DNA of 53,480 bases. Origin: Oscillospiraceae bacterium. Lineage in GTDB: Bacteria > Bacillota > Clostridia > Oscillospirales > CAG-272. Positions within the stretch are counted from its first letter, which is position 1. Every line of letters begins with the position of its first letter. Below, piece by piece: positions 46,041 to 53,164 of the stretch. The stretch spans positions 1-53,480 of the forward strand of contig SVSR01000010.1 of the NCBI GenBank assembly GCA_015064205.1, in the 5' to 3' direction. The translations under genes and the position numbers were made by a program. Below the pieces are notes generated by a model, which saw only the letters and a list, made by a program, of their open reading frames with translations, was not told the origin of the DNA and made no database searches.

Positions 46041-46332
46041 AAAGGATGCTCTGAGACTTGAATATTTACTCAAGCGCAGAGAACTTGAACTCGACGCAGT
46101 TCGCGGTGAACTGAAAGGAGAGCGAGAGGTCAACTCGCTTTGTGCGGCATTTATAATATATCTAATCTCAAAACTTGGTTGGGTAAGCGGCAACGATCTG
46201 GTTGCCGAGATTAAAAAAGCTGAAGTTAACAAACTTGTTGGCAATTATTTCGCATCATGCGACGATAACGGCGACAGCTACAAGGTTATATTAAGTCCAC
46301 GAGAGGTTATAGACGATTCTCATGGCTCGTAA
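46006..46332 (+). CDS. Phage protein with N-terminal coiled coil
   Basis: About 108 residues. The first half is a charged helix (KDALRLEYLLKRRELELDAVRGELKGE), which is likely a coiled coil. The second half is globular. GGAG is 7 nt before TTG 46006; an ATG at 46012 is the alternative. Overlaps the previous gene by 35 nt and the next by 11 nt. Possibly a DNA-packaging accessory factor; not recognised. Confidence 0.6.
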   Translation: MLMKQNQKKSYEKDALRLEYLLKRRELELDAVRGELKGEREVNSLCAAFIIYLISKLGWVSGNDLVAEIKKAEVNKLVGNYFASCDDNGDSYKVILSPREVIDDSHGS

Positions 46333-46585
46333 AAGCAAAAGTGAAGCTTCACACGGCACACAGAGCACAGAGGCGCTTTTAAAATCTGCGGCACTTGATG
46401 CACTTGACGAATTACTATATCTTGCAAAAAGTGAAACGACAGATTTTAAAACAAAATACGATATTTACAAATGGCTATGCGAAATGTATTTCGGCAAGCC
46501 AACGAGCACCTCTCAAAAGGCAGACAGTTCAGATAAAAGCTTAGTCCTTGCCTTTACGGGAGAACTTGACAAATGGAGCAAATAG
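46322..46585 (+). CDS. Probable terminase small subunit
   Basis: An 87-residue protein, Ser/Lys-rich at the N-terminus, then helical (LLKSAALDALDELLYLAKSE, YDIYKWLCEMYFGKP). Position immediately upstream of the large terminase, overlapping its start by 13 nt, is what identifies it; small terminases recognise the DNA packaging site. No clear HTH is visible, and it is shorter than most. Confidence 0.55.
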   Translation: MARKSKSEASHGTQSTEALLKSAALDALDELLYLAKSETTDFKTKYDIYKWLCEMYFGKPTSTSQKADSSDKSLVLAFTGELDKWSK

Positions 46586-48006
46586 AGATGACTGTTAAAC
46601 AAGAAGAAAAACTGCCGCCGATTTTTGAACGCTTATGCACCGAGGTACCAAACCCCAAGCAAAGATTGTTCTTTGAATCAACTGCCAAGCATACTGCATA
46701 CGGCGGTGCACGCGGAGGCGGAAAAAGCTATGCAATGCGCCGAAAACTTGTTATGCTTTGCATGAGATATGAAAATCTTTCCGTTTTGCTTTTGAGACGC
46801 ACGCTTCAGGAGCTCAGGAAAAACCACATTCAGCCGCTTTTATTTGAGCTTAACGGATATGCAACTTATAAAAAAGATGAGCGCTCATTTATTTTCCCGA
46901 ACGGATCAAGGCTTGAGCTGGGTTATTGCGACTGTGACGGCGATCTTATGCAATATCAGGGTGCTGAATACGACGTTATCGGTTTTGAAGAAGCAACGAA
47001 TTTCAGGGAGGAGTGGATACGGTTTATCTCCACTTCCCTACGAAGCACCAGACTTGATTTTCGTACAAGAGTATATTACACGTGTAATCCGGGCGGTGTT
47101 GGCCACAACTACATAAAAAGGTTATTCGTTGACAGGGATTATATCGACGGTGAAAATCCTGATGATTACCTTTTCATACCTGCACGCGTTTATGACAACG
47201 ATGAGCTTATGCGTGCAAATCCCGATTACATACGTTTACTTGAATCACTCCCAAGCGCCAAACGCAGAGCCCATCTTGAAGGTGACTGGAATGTTTGCGA
47301 GGGTCAGGTTTTTGAAGAGTTTCGAGATGATCCCGAACACAGGGGCGACCGTTTAGGCTCGCACGTGATAGCGCCGTTTGATATACCCGACACGTGGACT
47401 ATTCACAGAAGCTTTGACTTTGGTTATGCCAAGCCCTTTTCATGTGGTTGGTGGGCATGTGATTATGACGGAAGGCTTTACAGGATACTTGAATTATATG
47501 GGTGTGTTCCCAGAGAACCCAACGTTGGCGTTAAATGGACACCTGATGAAATCTTTACGGAAATTGCACGTATAGAAAACGAGCATCCCTGGCTTCGTGG
47601 CAAGCACATATACGGTGTTGCCGACCCGTCCATTTGGGATGCTTCAAGAGGAGTATCAATTGCAGAGGTTGCGGAAAAGCACGGTATCTACTTTGAAAAA
47701 GGTGATAACAAGCGCATTGCCGGCTGGATGCAGGTGCATTACAGGTTAAGCTTTGACAAGAACGGTATACCTATGATGTATGTTTTTGAAAACTGCCGTG
47801 ATTTTATAAGGACCATGCCGCTTTTACAGTACTCGTCCACTTCCCCCGAGGATATTGACACGCAGCTTGAGGATCATATTGCCGACGAAACTCGCTATAT
47901 GTGTATGTCTCAGCCTATAAGGCCGATAAAGAAAACAGGCACCTGTTCTCTATCCTCTCCTCTTTCTGCTTCAATGTCAAGATACAATTATTTACTTAAT
48001 CTTTAG
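46573..48006 (+). CDS. Terminase large subunit (DNA packaging ATPase/nuclease)
   Basis: A 477-residue motor that packages DNA into proheads and cuts the concatemer. Walker A is GGARGGGKS (44-52), Walker B-like YDVIGFEEA near 130, coupling motif TCNPGG near 170. The C-terminal nuclease has acidic positions at FDFGYAKP, GVADPS and a later DxxD-type site. An ATG at 46588 (five codons in, with GGAG 9 nt upstream) is an alternative start. Confidence 0.92.
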   Translation: MEQIEMTVKQEEKLPPIFERLCTEVPNPKQRLFFESTAKHTAYGGARGGGKSYAMRRKLVMLCMRYENLSVLLLRRTLQELRKNHIQPLLFELNGYATYKKDERSFIFPNGSRLELGYCDCDGDLMQYQGAEYDVIGFEEATNFREEWIRFISTSLRSTRLDFRTRVYYTCNPGGVGHNYIKRLFVDRDYIDGENPDDYLFIPARVYDNDELMRANPDYIRLLESLPSAKRRAHLEGDWNVCEGQVFEEFRDDPEHRGDRLGSHVIAPFDIPDTWTIHRSFDFGYAKPFSCGWWACDYDGRLYRILELYGCVPREPNVGVKWTPDEIFTEIARIENEHPWLRGKHIYGVADPSIWDASRGVSIAEVAEKHGIYFEKGDNKRIAGWMQVHYRLSFDKNGIPMMYVFENCRDFIRTMPLLQYSSTSPEDIDTQLEDHIADETRYMCMSQPIRPIKKTGTCSLSSPLSASMSRYNYLLNL

Positions 48007-48015
48007 GAGGTTTTA

Positions 48016-49713
48016 ATGAATAAAAAAACAAACGCTTTGCCTGTTACAACAGATAAAATACGTGAAGGGCAAAAGCTTTTACTTGAATATAAGCGTTCAA
48101 AGGCACAAATTGAAGAACGACTTATTTCTGACGAAAAATTCTGGAATTCACGTCACCGTGACACTCCCCTGTCACGTTCTACCGACATGCCCTCTCCTGC
48201 ATCTTCATGGATGTTTTCAACAGTTATCAACAAGCATGCTGATATTCTTGAAAACATTCCATCACCTGTATGCCTGGCAAGGGAGGAAAGTGACGTTGTT
48301 GCTGCTGAGGCACTTAATTCAGTGCTCCCTGTAATATTCGACCGGCTTTCCTTTAACAGCATCTATTCAGATGCACAGTATGACAAATTAAAGCACGGAA
48401 CTGCCGTTTATGGTGTTTTCTGGGATCCTTGTGCCGAAAACGGCATTGGCGACATTGATATAAGAAGAATTGACTTACTTAATCTTTACTGCGAGCCGTC
48501 TGTTCTCTCGCTCGAAGATTCAAGAAACGTATTTTACGTTTCACAGGCAGACTATGATGAAACTTTAGAAAAATATCCGTGGTTAACTAAAGAAGACATT
48601 ATTAACAATTCCGGATTTTTAGGTAGTGATGAGAACAGCAAGTGCGTTATTGTCGATTGGTACTACAAGAAAAAGTCGGGGACACGTACCTTGCTTCATT
48701 ATATTAAATTTATAGGCGACACTATATTGTATGCTTCCGAAAACGACGAAAAAGCTTCTCTTGGATTTTATGAGCATGGTAAATATCCGTTTGTTTTGGA
48801 CATATTGTACCGTGATGGTAATTCTCCGTTCGGATATGGGCTTATTGCGATAACAAAGGGCACACAAAGATACATTGACAAGCTTGATGAAAATATTCTT
48901 GAACGCTCAATAATGTCTTCAAAGCCGCGTTATATGATGAAAAAGAACGTTGGTCTCAACCGTGACGAATTTTTAGACTGGAACAATCCCATTGTTGAGG
49001 TTGAGGGGGATCTTTCGGAAGAAAGATTCAAGCCGATAACACTTCCTGCAATTGACTCTTCGGTTATTACTGTACGCGACTCTAAAATAAATGAAATGCG
49101 CGAAGTGACGTCTAACCGTATTGTAAACTATGGCGGTGCAGACAATCTTACATCGGGTGTTGCTATTGCGGCCGTTCAGGAGGCAGGAAACAAGGTTTCT
49201 CGTGATATTATTTCAGGGTCGTGGGACGCTTATATAAAGATCGTTAAGCTTGTTATTGAGCTTATAAGACAATTCTACACAGAAGATCGATATTTCAGGA
49301 TTACACGTCCTAATGAGGAAGGTTTTAAATATATTAGCTTTTCAGGAAAAGAACTTGCCGAAAAGAAAAGCGAGTTTGGCGGAGAAACTCTTTACAGATT
49401 ACCTGTTTTTGATATAGAGGTACGTGCTCAGAAAAGCTCTGTTTTTTCAAGGCTTGCTCAGAATGAGCTCATTATAAATTTGTTCAGGCTCGGTTTTTTC
49501 AAGAGCGAAAACGCACAAGAAGCTATTATTGCGCTCGATCAAATGGAGCTTGAGGGAAAGCGAAATATAATTGAAAATCTCCGAAAAATGAGTCTTAACG
49601 AAAGCAACACCAATGTATCTTTGGATTCGACATCAAAGGACGTGGGTGTTGACAAAAGAATTGGACAGGCAATCCACTCTGCAAAAGAACTTTATACGGA
49701 GGAAAGCCTGTGA
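48016..49713 (+). CDS. Phage portal protein
   Basis: A 565-residue protein, the expected size for a portal that forms the dodecameric DNA channel. It lies between terminase and head-protease/scaffold genes. Central segments such as GKYPFVLDILYRDGNSPFGYGLIAITKGTQRYIDKLDENIL and the long helical C-terminal region fit podovirus-like or SPP1-type portals. AGGAGG precedes the ATG. Confidence 0.85.
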   Translation: MNKKTNALPVTTDKIREGQKLLLEYKRSKAQIEERLISDEKFWNSRHRDTPLSRSTDMPSPASSWMFSTVINKHADILENIPSPVCLAREESDVVAAEALNSVLPVIFDRLSFNSIYSDAQYDKLKHGTAVYGVFWDPCAENGIGDIDIRRIDLLNLYCEPSVLSLEDSRNVFYVSQADYDETLEKYPWLTKEDIINNSGFLGSDENSKCVIVDWYYKKKSGTRTLLHYIKFIGDTILYASENDEKASLGFYEHGKYPFVLDILYRDGNSPFGYGLIAITKGTQRYIDKLDENILERSIMSSKPRYMMKKNVGLNRDEFLDWNNPIVEVEGDLSEERFKPITLPAIDSSVITVRDSKINEMREVTSNRIVNYGGADNLTSGVAIAAVQEAGNKVSRDIISGSWDAYIKIVKLVIELIRQFYTEDRYFRITRPNEEGFKYISFSGKELAEKKSEFGGETLYRLPVFDIEVRAQKSSVFSRLAQNELIINLFRLGFFKSENAQEAIIALDQMELEGKRNIIENLRKMSLNESNTNVSLDSTSKDVGVDKRIGQAIHSAKELYTEESL

Positions 49714-50012
49714 TAGATATTAAAATACAAAAAAGCGGTAAAACACTTTCCTTATCTGCCATAGGTCACGCAGATTACGCGCCTTATGGTTCGGATATTG
49801 TGTGCGCCGGCGTTTCAAGTATTATACTCGGTCTTTGCGCTGCTCTTTCAAAGGATGCCCAGCGCACCGAAATTTCAAGCGGACAGGCTTATATAAGATG
49901 CTCAGACACAAAGGATTGCCGCGCATATTTCAGAGTCGTTATAAACGCCCTCGAACTTATTGTGGCAGAATATCCCGAAAATATAAAGCTTGTATGCAAC
50001 ATGTCTGAGTAA
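49710..50012 (+). CDS. prp: Phage-encoded Prp-family cysteine protease
   Basis: A 100-residue protein. The Prp signature GHADYAPYGSDIVCAGVS gives His20 and Cys32, 12 residues apart as in Staphylococcus Prp (His22/Cys34). Cellular Prp removes the N-terminal extension of ribosomal protein L27, and its gene normally sits between rplU and rpmA. Here it stands in the portal-protease-scaffold-capsid slot, overlapping the portal stop by 4 nt (GTGA start). It most likely matures the capsid by cutting scaffold and capsid N-termini. Confidence 0.88.
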   Translation: MIDIKIQKSGKTLSLSAIGHADYAPYGSDIVCAGVSSIILGLCAALSKDAQRTEISSGQAYIRCSDTKDCRAYFRVVINALELIVAEYPENIKLVCNMSE

Positions 50013-50053
50013 ATTTTTGTTATCAACGGCTTAATTGCCGGAAAGGAATTCCT

Positions 50054-50773
50054 ATGATATATTCTTTACTTACGTTGTTTTCAAACAATGTAAACACGGG
50101 CGAAAGCACAAATGTAAACAATGATACCGCAGCTGCGGACGCCGCGCAGACCCATGACGGTATAAACGACGAAGTCAATGCCGAAATGCCCGGCACTGAC
50201 ACGGGTGAAAACGAAATTCCGGACACCGCGGAAGGTCAGATGCCTGCTAAAACCAGGCGCGAGATTTACGATGAGTTCATCAGGGCACACAAAGATTTAT
50301 ATGCTGAAGATACTCAGAGAATAATCAATCGCCGTTTCAAGGAGGTAAAAGAAACAGAAGCTGCCCTTGTGGCTGCAAGAGAAAGAATAAGCGAACTTGA
50401 AGCTATACAAGTTCAAAAAACACCGTGCCCGCCGGGTGAGGACTTTATTCTTGCTCATCCCGATTTTGATCTCGAGCGTGAGCTTAAAAACGACACGTTC
50501 AAAGTACTTTACAATGCCGGCATTGATCCCGCTCTTGCGTACGATACTGCTCATTTAGATGAGATTATCGCTACTGCAAAGGAGGGGGCTCATCGCGAGG
50601 CTGTACGCGCAACTTTTGAAAGCGTGAAGGCTCGCGGAGTCAGAATTCAGGAATCGGCTTCTGCTTCTCACTCCGGCATTAGTATTAAACGCGACGTTTC
50701 AAAGCTAAGCCGCGCAGAACGTGCGGAAATAGCAAGACGCGTTATGGCGGGCGAAAAAGTCAGTTTTGTCTGA
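50054..50773 (+). CDS. Phage scaffolding protein with Prp-type N-terminal motif
   Basis: A 239-residue acidic protein without Cys until late, rich in Asp/Glu/Asn/Thr at 15-80 and helical at 85-135 (coiled coil), typical of scaffolds. The N-terminus MIYSLLTLFSNNVN shares LTLFS with the capsid protein and resembles the L27 extension (LNLQFFA) cut by Prp. GGAAAGGAA precedes the ATG. Position between protease and capsid fits. Function inferred from place and composition. Confidence 0.75.
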   Translation: MIYSLLTLFSNNVNTGESTNVNNDTAAADAAQTHDGINDEVNAEMPGTDTGENEIPDTAEGQMPAKTRREIYDEFIRAHKDLYAEDTQRIINRRFKEVKETEAALVAARERISELEAIQVQKTPCPPGEDFILAHPDFDLERELKNDTFKVLYNAGIDPALAYDTAHLDEIIATAKEGAHREAVRATFESVKARGVRIQESASASHSGISIKRDVSKLSRAERAEIARRVMAGEKVSFV

Positions 50774-50825
50774 TTGGGACAAAGCGATAATTTTGCGCCG
50801 TCTATGACGGCAGAATGGAGAAAAC

Positions 50826-52163
50826 ATGAAAAACAATATTCTTACACTTTTTTCTGCAGGTGAAAACGTTATGACAACCGAAGGCAGTGTTAACGTATAT
50901 ACCGAAAACACTTCTTCCGATTCTCTTTCACTTGACATGAAGACATACTATAGCGATTTTCTTATTGACAACGCTGAGCCTTCTCTTGTTCACGCGCAGT
51001 TCGGTCAGAAGAGACCTATTCCTCAAAATGGAGGCAAGACGGTTGAATTCAGACGCTACTCTGCTCTTCCCAAGGCTTCTGCTCCTCTTGTTGAGGGTGT
51101 AACACCCGCAGGTACTTCGATGGAAATGTCTACTGTACGCGCAAGCGTTTATCAGTATGGCGCATACATTGAGCTTTCCGATATGCTTCTTATGACAGCC
51201 ATTGACAACAACGTTGTTGAAGCCACAAAGCTCCTCGGTTCACAGGCAGGAAGAACTATTGATTCGGTTATCAGAGACGTTATTATTTCCTCAGGTACTA
51301 ACGTACAGTACGGTGAGGGCAGCGTTAACTCAAGACTCGAGCTTGTAGGCGGTCAGACAAGCGGCAACCATTACCTTACTGTTGACTGTATCAGACGTGC
51401 TGCTCGCGCTCTTAAATCCAAGAACGTTGAAAAGATCAACGGTTCTTACGTTGCTATAATCCACCCCGACGTAGCATACGACCTTATGAACGATCCCGAA
51501 TGGGAAAAGCCTAAGAGCTACTGTGATCCTGCTGATCTTTACAATGGTGAGATCGGTAAGATCGGTGGAGTTCGTTTCGTTGAATCAACCGAAGCAAAGA
51601 TCATCGAAGCTGATAAGCTTGTTTCTCAGACAAAGAGCAAGTATCTTACAATCGCATCATACGCTACTGCTGAAAGCGATGCACAGATAACCACCGGTGC
51701 CGGCGTTGGTACTAAGTTTGCACTTACAATCAAGGACACACTCTCAAATGATGATGCTATGAGACTCGTTGGAAAGTCCCTTCAGCTCTACAACGAAGCA
51801 GAGTCGACGGTTGAAACGGTTAAGGTTGCAGGCGTTGATACTGAAAACGGCTTTATTTATCTTGAAGAAGCGCCTGTATCAGCATATGTTAGCGGCGACA
51901 AGGCTTATGCGGCAAATGCAGGTTGCCTTGGACGCGACGTTTACTGCACTCTCGTTATCGGTGCCAATGCATACGGTGTTATCGACATTATCGGCGGCGG
52001 CCTTGAACACATTGTCAAGCAGCTTGGCTCTGCCGGCACGGGCGACCCGATAAATCAGCGCGCAACTATCGGCTGGAAGGCGGCTATTTCGGCTTGTGTA
52101 CTTGCACAGGAGGCGCTTGTACGTATCGAAACCGCTTCTTCATTTGAATCGGGTTCCAACTAA
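50826..52163 (+). CDS. Major capsid protein, N4-gp56 family
   Basis: A 445-residue HK97-fold coat protein. FLIDNAEPSLVHAQFGQKRPIPQNGGKTVEFRRYS and LVEGVTPAGTSMEMSTVRASVYQYGAYIELSD are characteristic N4-gp56-type blocks. A probable insertion domain lies near 285-370. It begins MKNNILTLFSAGENV; LTLFS is shared with the scaffold, and cleavage after Phe would free Ser10. GGAG 8 nt before the ATG supports this start. Codon use is smoother than in its neighbours, fitting high expression. Confidence 0.9.
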   Translation: MKNNILTLFSAGENVMTTEGSVNVYTENTSSDSLSLDMKTYYSDFLIDNAEPSLVHAQFGQKRPIPQNGGKTVEFRRYSALPKASAPLVEGVTPAGTSMEMSTVRASVYQYGAYIELSDMLLMTAIDNNVVEATKLLGSQAGRTIDSVIRDVIISSGTNVQYGEGSVNSRLELVGGQTSGNHYLTVDCIRRAARALKSKNVEKINGSYVAIIHPDVAYDLMNDPEWEKPKSYCDPADLYNGEIGKIGGVRFVESTEAKIIEADKLVSQTKSKYLTIASYATAESDAQITTGAGVGTKFALTIKDTLSNDDAMRLVGKSLQLYNEAESTVETVKVAGVDTENGFIYLEEAPVSAYVSGDKAYAANAGCLGRDVYCTLVIGANAYGVIDIIGGGLEHIVKQLGSAGTGDPINQRATIGWKAAISACVLAQEALVRIETASSFESGSN

Positions 52164-52233: not shown

Positions 52234-52617
52234 ATGGAAGCTAATAATACTAAAGCAAAAGAAAAGAAAGTACAGCTTGAAGAAAAGCTTGAAGCTCTTG
52301 CTAAGATATATGAAGAAAAAATCAAGGCTCTTGAAGAATCTTCAGGAGCAGATAAAAAAATTGATACGCGTGTTGTGCGCGACATCTCTGCAAAGAAGGC
52401 TGATGACTACGTTGAGATCAGGCTTTTCAAGGACGGCGATAAATACAAGGATGACGTTCTTGTTGGGATCAACGGATACATGTGCAGAATAAAGCGCGGT
52501 GTTCCCGTTAAAATAAAGCGTTCATTTGCAAAGGTTATATCGGATTCAGAAGATTCAGTTGCAACTGTAAATGCTGATTTTCTTATGAAAGACGGTAAAA
52601 TGGAACGTTATTTTTAA
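52234..52617 (+). CDS. Phage head protein of unknown function
   Basis: A 127-residue protein. Residues 3-42 form a Lys/Glu coiled coil; the rest is a small beta domain (VEIRLFKDGDKYKDDVLVGINGYMCRIKRGVPVKI). AAAGAAAGG precedes the ATG. Its place after the capsid gene suggests a capsid accessory or head-completion role. Confidence 0.7.
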   Translation: MEANNTKAKEKKVQLEEKLEALAKIYEEKIKALEESSGADKKIDTRVVRDISAKKADDYVEIRLFKDGDKYKDDVLVGINGYMCRIKRGVPVKIKRSFAKVISDSEDSVATVNADFLMKDGKMERYF

Positions 52618-52646: not shown

Positions 52647-52832
52647 ATGATCAGAGAAACACATTTTGAAACAATAAAAAATTCCCTTGGTGAATGCTCC
52701 GAAATACGCCATTATATTATGGATTCGGATATAGAATTCAACAATCTTCCAGCTGATGCACCGGTTGGATCTGACGCTCTCTCAAAAACCTCAGTTTATA
52801 TAAAATTTCCGGAAGGCTGGTCTGCTATATGA
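52647..52832 (+). CDS. Small phage protein
   Basis: A 61-residue acidic protein with no recognised domain. AGAAAGGA lies upstream. Its stop overlaps the next ATG by 4 nt, so it belongs to the head-tail operon. Confidence 0.65.
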   Translation: MIRETHFETIKNSLGECSEIRHYIMDSDIEFNNLPADAPVGSDALSKTSVYIKFPEGWSAI

Positions 52833-53164
52833 GCAGTGCTGATAAGATTTTATCAGAAGTTAATGCGCTAAGGCCTAACCCATTTTCAGACAGGCTTGCT
52901 GACTTTCTTGAGTCTATCGAACTGAGAATAAAAAGCGAGCTTTTTAATGAAGAAAGCCCCGTATATGACCCATCTTCACTTTCTCTTGGTAAGCCTGATG
53001 ATAGTATTTATTATCTCTATCTGTTTGGCATTATAGATTTTTTAAACGGCGAATACGGCAGATATGAAAATACTTTTTCACAATTTGAAAAAGCTTGGAA
53101 CAAGCTTGCATCACAACTTGCAGAGATAAGAAAAAATCAAAAGCGGAGGATCACACTGTGGTAA
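52829..53164 (+). CDS. Probable head-tail connector
   Basis: A 111-residue helical protein. KILSEVNALRPNPF and IYYLYLFGIIDFLNGEYGRYENTFSQFEKAWNKLA resemble short neck/connector proteins of clostridial phages. Overlaps neighbours on both sides. Assignment rests on context and general similarity. Confidence 0.6.
   Translation: MSSADKILSEVNALRPNPFSDRLADFLESIELRIKSELFNEESPVYDPSSLSLGKPDDSIYYLYLFGIIDFLNGEYGRYENTFSQFEKAWNKLASQLAEIRKNQKRRITLW

Follow-up and report, generated by a model that had tools for sequence, protein, structure and literature searches.

A prophage-borne Prp-family protease and matching candidate cleavage sites at the N-termini of its scaffold-like and major capsid proteins

A prophage head module with its own prp gene

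The DNA analyzed here (the window; 53,480 nt) is an entire contig (G000:C9) of a Clostridia-like metagenome-assembled genome. The first 45 kb are chromosomal, with genes for LepA, a MutS2-type protein, YqfD and tmRNA; a prophage head module occupies the contig end, and the contig terminates within the prophage (Table 1). The portal, prp, scaffold-like and capsid genes are adjacent and co-oriented, meaning that their products are probably made together late in infection. The GTG start codon of prp overlaps the portal stop codon; the scaffold-like and capsid genes have ATG start codons, with the Shine-Dalgarno sequences AGGAA and GGAG upstream, respectively. Among the head-region genes visible in the window, there is no Pfam match to a serine prohead protease (HK97-like). 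We use “scaffold-like” as a label derived from gene order and phrog_13908, a PHROG with no assigned function, with no named family behind the name; the protein shares its SKLSRAERAEIARRVMAGEKVSF-type C-terminal end and its gene position with the same gene in relatives.

Table 1. Positions of features in the window
Feature	Position	Strand	Basis or remark
tmRNA gene, tag ANNTELAAA	5133-5489	-	chromosomal portion of the window
Small gene preceding the large terminase gene, probably terminase small subunit	46322..46585	+	position only; no family match
Terminase large subunit	46573..48006	+	PF03237, phrog_979
P22-like portal protein, immediately 5' of prp	48016..49713	+	PF16510, E 7e-24; phrog_156
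Shine-Dalgarno sequence GGAGGAAAG of prp, within the end of the portal gene	49698..49706	+	direct sequence reading
Phage-borne Prp cysteine protease, 100 aa, GTG start; H20, D29, C32	49710..50012	+	PF04327
Scaffold-like protein, 239 aa, between prp and capsid genes	50054..50773	+	phrog_13908
Predicted cut-off peptide of scaffold-like protein, MIYSLLTLF; predicted cut F9/S10	50054..50080	+	aligned to relatives' sites
Major capsid protein, 445 aa	50826..52163	+	phrog_1357 major head protein, E 1.8e-80; PF19821/PF25209 above cut-off
Predicted cut-off peptide of capsid protein, MKNNILTLF; predicted cut F9/S10	50826..50852	+	aligned to relatives' sites
Next head-region gene, function not assigned by PHROG	52234..52617	+	phrog_15239
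Next head-region gene, function not assigned by PHROG	52829..53164	+	phrog_12105

An earlier reading of the sequence alone (the sequence-only reading) had placed a Prp gene with intact His20 and Cys32 in the prohead-protease slot, and the family assignment agrees with this. The protein scores 63.8 bits against PF04327 (cut-off, 27) and matches Staphylococcus aureus Prp by phmmer (4peo/7kld; E 7e-12), whose catalytic residues H22, D31 and C34 are paired in the alignment with H20, D29 and C32. Its AlphaFold2 model has a pLDDT of 92, and the top Foldseek match is 7kld_B (TM 0.87, rmsd 2.0 Å), i.e., S. aureus Prp carrying a covalently bound peptide. By family score, catalytic residues and fold, the gene product is a Prp (MEROPS C108) with predicted protease activity.

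The two genes that follow prp begin with similar peptides, as the same reading had observed. The scaffold-like protein starts MIYSLLTLF/SNN and the capsid protein MKNNILTLF/SAG (slashes indicate predicted or known cleavage sites), such that L-T-L-F-S is common to both at residues 6–10; the peptides spanning the predicted sites are IYSLLTLFSNNVN and KNNILTLFSAGEN. A shared run of at least five residues between the two first-30-residue stretches occurred in 63 of 20,000 shuffles (p about 0.003). Within the window alone, a five-residue match is unusual, not overwhelming, and it is the relatives that carry weight. The underlying DNA differs at synonymous positions (CTTACGTTGTTTTCA vs CTTACACTTTTTTCT); therefore, the peptide match is not a recent DNA duplication. 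The closest relatives bear the peptide on both scaffold and capsid proteins: MIYDSLALF/S and MNNILTIF/S in L102, and MNKFVLTLF/S and MNNILTIF/S in L103. Capsid residues 1–19 have an AlphaFold2 pLDDT below 50, a model too poor for placing the peptide.

Ribosomal protein L27 of the host starts MIRLSLQFF/AHKK (peptide spanning the site, RLSLQFFAHKKG). The host site, LSLQFF/A, differs from LTLF/S at P3, P2 and P1', and the host Prp is a separate gene. The comparison with the host L27 N-terminus that had been proposed earlier gives two unlike sites. These differences suggest a shift in the specificity of the phage enzyme.

Co-occurrence of prp and the capsid peptide

Relatives were gathered by capsid alignments, not by prp, yielding about 160 further loci. 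The first alignment of the window Prp was too diverse as a search query, and the window Prp as a lone query gave zero matches against viral contigs. The capsid peptide was scored by a pattern (short N-terminal peptide, aliphatic P4, F or H at P1). A prp-like gene lies beside a homologous capsid gene at 110 loci, 109 of which have the capsid peptide by pattern; at the last, L008, the peptide was recognized by eye (THMF/D on the scaffold, TQMF/D on the capsid). Among cluster representatives, the capsid peptide is found in 54/55 with prp vs 4/9 without (Fisher 9e-5), and in an independent set of 22 new lineages it is found in all 16 that carry prp; L312, a prp-less locus of that set, has the host-like site NLQHF/A. 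These counts favor the sequence-only reading: the contrary case that it had named, i.e., prp kept with the capsid peptide missing, was encountered in none of the prp-carrying relatives surveyed.

Eighteen loci have no nearby prp and at least 4.2 kb upstream, and 13 of their capsids are peptide-less, starting at an MSINYNTQTT-type region. Two of the other five were dropped as exceptions: a whole-contig search located the prp of L100 elsewhere on its contig, and L155, which had seemed to be a prp-less locus with matched sites, is a truncated remnant beside an asparaginyl-tRNA-synthetase-like gene. Both also belong to the four prp-less cluster representatives with a peptide. This leaves L105, L170 and L015 of the five. 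Prp-less capsids start 14–28 residues before a conserved MKTxY, while the predicted cut products start 14–32 residues before it. We count this in favor of cleavage, since prp-less relatives begin where a cut product would begin; the N-terminus of the window capsid, if cut, would fall in the same range.

A loose version of the site pattern fits 91% of capsid starts and 71% of scaffold starts, compared with about 4–37% for most neighboring genes; Prp itself also fits, via its own GHA motif. About a quarter of prp-carrying relatives have the peptide on the capsid only; many such phages are among L024–L033 and L123–L149, and shorter scaffolds are common in them. A search for a third substrate was convincing only in L055, where a small gene 3' of the capsid gene (L055:7858-8112, + strand) starts MKNLKLFPVDLTIH/Q, matching the His-type sites of the scaffold (LFPVFLAVH/D) and capsid (FPAILTVH/D) in the same phage; its product is a likely third substrate.

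The shared peptide could instead serve as an assembly or chaperone-docking signal that looks like a Prp site by coincidence. Matching peptides might then stem from common binding, given that scaffold and capsid interact, and assembly of S. aureus phage 80α needs the N-terminal peptide of the scaffold but not its cutting (PMC5744158). We consider docking as the sole explanation very improbable, as the peptide follows prp: on the capsid it is always present with prp and mostly missing without. Moreover, its last residue is F or H and the next one usually D, A, S, G or E, a boundary that lies just where prp-less capsids begin, and one subclade has the capsid peptide without a scaffold copy. Because of the 80α precedent, a cleaved peptide may also act before its removal.

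Agreement between scaffold and capsid sites

Sites vary widely between phages, yet agree inside one phage. We compared the two sites in 41 lineages that have both, with capsids below 80% identity; the L008 sites were set by hand, and one spurious scaffold match (L130) was removed. P1 agrees between scaffold and capsid in all 41 lineages, including His/His in L043, L055 and L061. P2 is identical in 31 (14.4 expected), P1' in 27 (12 expected) and P3 in 13 (4.6 expected), with a permutation p of about 1e-4 or below for each of P1, P2 and P1'. BLOSUM scores over P3–P1' are higher than in all 20,000 permutations, and both BLOSUM and P2 agreement are still significant when scaffolds are permuted inside capsid clades only. 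Fifteen new lineages, with no hand edits, repeat the match (BLOSUM p 4e-4). Examples of matched sites include VLDLHLH/D with VMDLHIH/D (L061), MMLDRF/E with MILDRF/N (L078), INLASF/E with ISLSSF/V (L153) and LNLTKF/D on both proteins (L294). L065 is discordant, with P1 His on the scaffold and Phe on the capsid.

Identical site residues use different codons in 104 cases vs 104.8 expected for independent genes; therefore, the match is at the protein level and does not reflect a copied 5' end. Once shared descent is accounted for, site and Prp sequence correlate weakly (partial Mantel r 0.19, p 0.017 for the capsid; r 0.09, p 0.14 for the scaffold). Judged from these sequences, the enzyme and its two targets look like a co-evolving set, which is in keeping with the earlier suggestion that the peptides are a common protease signal.

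Chance likeness combined with shared phage ancestry, with prp and the peptides functionally unlinked, is hardly credible. It could account for the five-residue match in the window, and for the prp linkage as something inherited with the head module; it is at odds with the concordance of two non-homologous proteins in 41 and then 15 lineages by permutation, also inside capsid clades.

We hold it to be highly probable that the prophage encodes its own C108 (Prp) protease, expressed from the late operon along with two substrates, and that this enzyme most likely trims nine N-terminal residues off the scaffold and major capsid proteins during head assembly. Cleavage would fall between residues 9 and 10 of each protein (MIYSLLTLF/S and MKNNILTLF/S). 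Enzyme and sites would form a closed set that has drifted from the host L27-processing Prp and its LSLQFF/A site, which would spare the phage dependence on the host enzyme. Weighing against this reading are the relatives with a peptide on the capsid only, the discordant L065, the weak Mantel correlation, the presence of a host Prp in the same genome and the dispensability of cleavage in 80α.

Own Prp, host Prp or neither

There are two Prps in this genome, and the phage enzyme is the one that we infer acts on the head proteins. They share only 18% identity. The host gene adjoins rpmA (L27) on a different contig, whereas the window gene lies between portal and capsid genes rather than beside rpmA on the chromosome, the location that characterizes host-type prp. 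A tree of 86 Prps places 30 host and four lactic-phage Prps in a single supported group (99/95), outside which every Prp of the window's phage family falls. With few columns and no root, this tree is used only for the host-vs-phage grouping, where separation is readable and direction is not. Recent capture of the phage Prp from the present host is unlikely on this basis. The catalytic His and Cys are retained in 52/55 phage Prp representatives, the exceptions being a pseudo-Prp (L104) and two automatic-trimming artefacts.

Related phages occur in three states: (i) a prp gene of their own and drifted sites, like the window phage; (ii) no intact prp of their own, with host-like LQxF/A sites (L105, L107, L170, L104 and L015); (iii) neither prp nor peptide. 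In L105, L107 and L170, the only other intact Prp in the genome is the host's. L104 encodes a Prp-like protein lacking the catalytic His and Cys (L104:4958-5257, + strand), which looks like a decayed phage enzyme or a pseudo-enzyme; its scaffold is peptide-less, and its capsid has NLQHF/A. We count this combination of an inactive-looking Prp, a lost scaffold peptide and a host-like capsid site as support for a link between enzyme and sites. Altogether, three phage lineages lack an intact Prp of their own and keep host-like sites (L104 and L105 are one lineage; L015 is from an incomplete record).

Seven phages in the third state reside in hosts without any Prp, whose L27 starts M/AHKK (G034, G035, G036, G038, G042, G044 and G048); three others are in Prp-bearing hosts (G032, G043 and G045), so the rule is not absolute. 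A prophage in the first state, L165, is assigned to a host (G040) whose L27 is short and in which no further Prp occurs. Chromosomal genes, uvrC among them, are present on the L165 contig, and its tetranucleotide use fits G040 (0.93–0.94, vs 0.90 for the other candidate bin). L164 and L165 share 13,197 identical bases, i.e., the same prp-carrying prophage was binned twice; the second bin, G039, has a long L27 and a host Prp, and the contig with its prophage copy may consist entirely of phage DNA. A binning error in the host assignment of L165 is possible. L153 is in a bin labeled Candidatus Heimdallarchaeota, probably through a binning error, and was excluded as host evidence.

These states bear on the possibility that the host Prp cuts the peptides, as in 80α, with the phage Prp being redundant or aimed at another target. 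The host genome has a Prp beside L27, and L105, L107, L170 and L015 keep peptides without an intact Prp of their own; capsids of this family are therefore probably within reach of a host Prp. For the window we judge host cleavage unlikely. Relatives without an intact Prp have LQxF/A sites in 5/5 cases vs 12/54 prp-carrying lineages (Fisher 0.001, an optimistic value, as the set counted L100, which has prp, and L104/L105, which are one lineage), and the window site departs from the host L27 site as described above. Prps are also reported to be selective: Clostridioides difficile Prp left an S. aureus L27 peptide uncut (PMC9405229). Lastly, a prp-carrying prophage is assigned to an otherwise Prp-less host, and phage Prps fall outside the host group in the tree; both give indirect support to the idea that the phage enzyme may act independently of the host Prp. 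No support was found for the earlier proposal that it competes with the host enzyme.

Several known systems resemble the window in part. In S. aureus, the host Prp cuts the scaffold and capsid of 80α, as well as L27, each between F and A (PMC5744158, PMC9405229). Protease family and fold, a hydrophobic P4, F at P1 and sites on scaffold (gp46) and capsid (gp47) are as in the window; by contrast, 80α has no Prp of its own and its sites are the host L27 site, NLQ[FH]F/A, whereas the window phage has prp and sites that drifted to LTLF/S. C108 proteases (clan CR) are known from hosts, as Prp, and from one phage, Cp-1, whose enzyme shortens the major head protein of that phage at the N-terminus (PMC12445089), so the idea is less new than the sequence-only reading implied. 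Like Cp-1, the window phage encodes a C108 protease, here adjoining head genes and presumed to cut head proteins; the differences are that Cp-1 is an unrelated phi29-like phage, that its protease removes 48 residues, and that a matched scaffold site lacks description in the literature searched.

In the lactic-acid-bacterium siphophages phiFL3A, TP712, Krappator27 and phi9805, prp (annotated “peptidase” or DUF464) directly follows the portal gene, and scaffold and capsid have N-terminal peptides of the NLQ[RFI]F type followed by A or S. Unlike in the window, their Prps are within the host clade and their sites stay L27-like. The major tail protein of phiFL3A, Krappator27 and phi9805 bears such a peptide too; lactic siphophage major tail proteins (L019:9523-9903, L020:10896-11354 and L022:11338-11802) have an LxLQ-type start whose last residue before Ala is F or L. 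Bacillus Pagevirus Pascal and Paenibacillus phage API480 have a related capsid and the order portal, scaffold-like, capsid; unlike the window phage, both are without prp and without the N-terminal peptide. A literature search, a weak negative with the founding Prp papers outside it, found no description of scaffold-capsid site co-variation with a phage-borne Prp. The class itself has precedent; what is new here is that two substrates match and co-vary and that phage Prps lie apart from the host clade.

In the laboratory, 80α is viable without the cleavage, yet it keeps a peptide for Prp to cut (PMC5744158). Despite sequence drift over dozens of lineages, two unrelated proteins of the phages surveyed here have kept their sites in agreement, which speaks for selection on the cut or on protease recognition. 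These phages also offer dozens of naturally paired enzymes and sites from which Prp specificity could be worked out, a useful set because the host Prp is essential and has been proposed as a drug target in Firmicutes (PMC9405229). On a wider picture our confidence is evenly balanced: these gut phages may amount to many orthogonal protease-substrate pairs found in nature, each lineage having a Prp specificity of its own that scaffold and capsid match (P1 His for Phe in three lineages). They may switch among three conditions, namely drifted sites together with a phage Prp, host-like sites in phages that lack one, and neither enzyme nor sites, the last tending to Prp-less hosts without the L27 extension. 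If this is true, Prp-dependent head processing would be under real selection, and a phage-borne copy would free the phage from the Prp status of its host.
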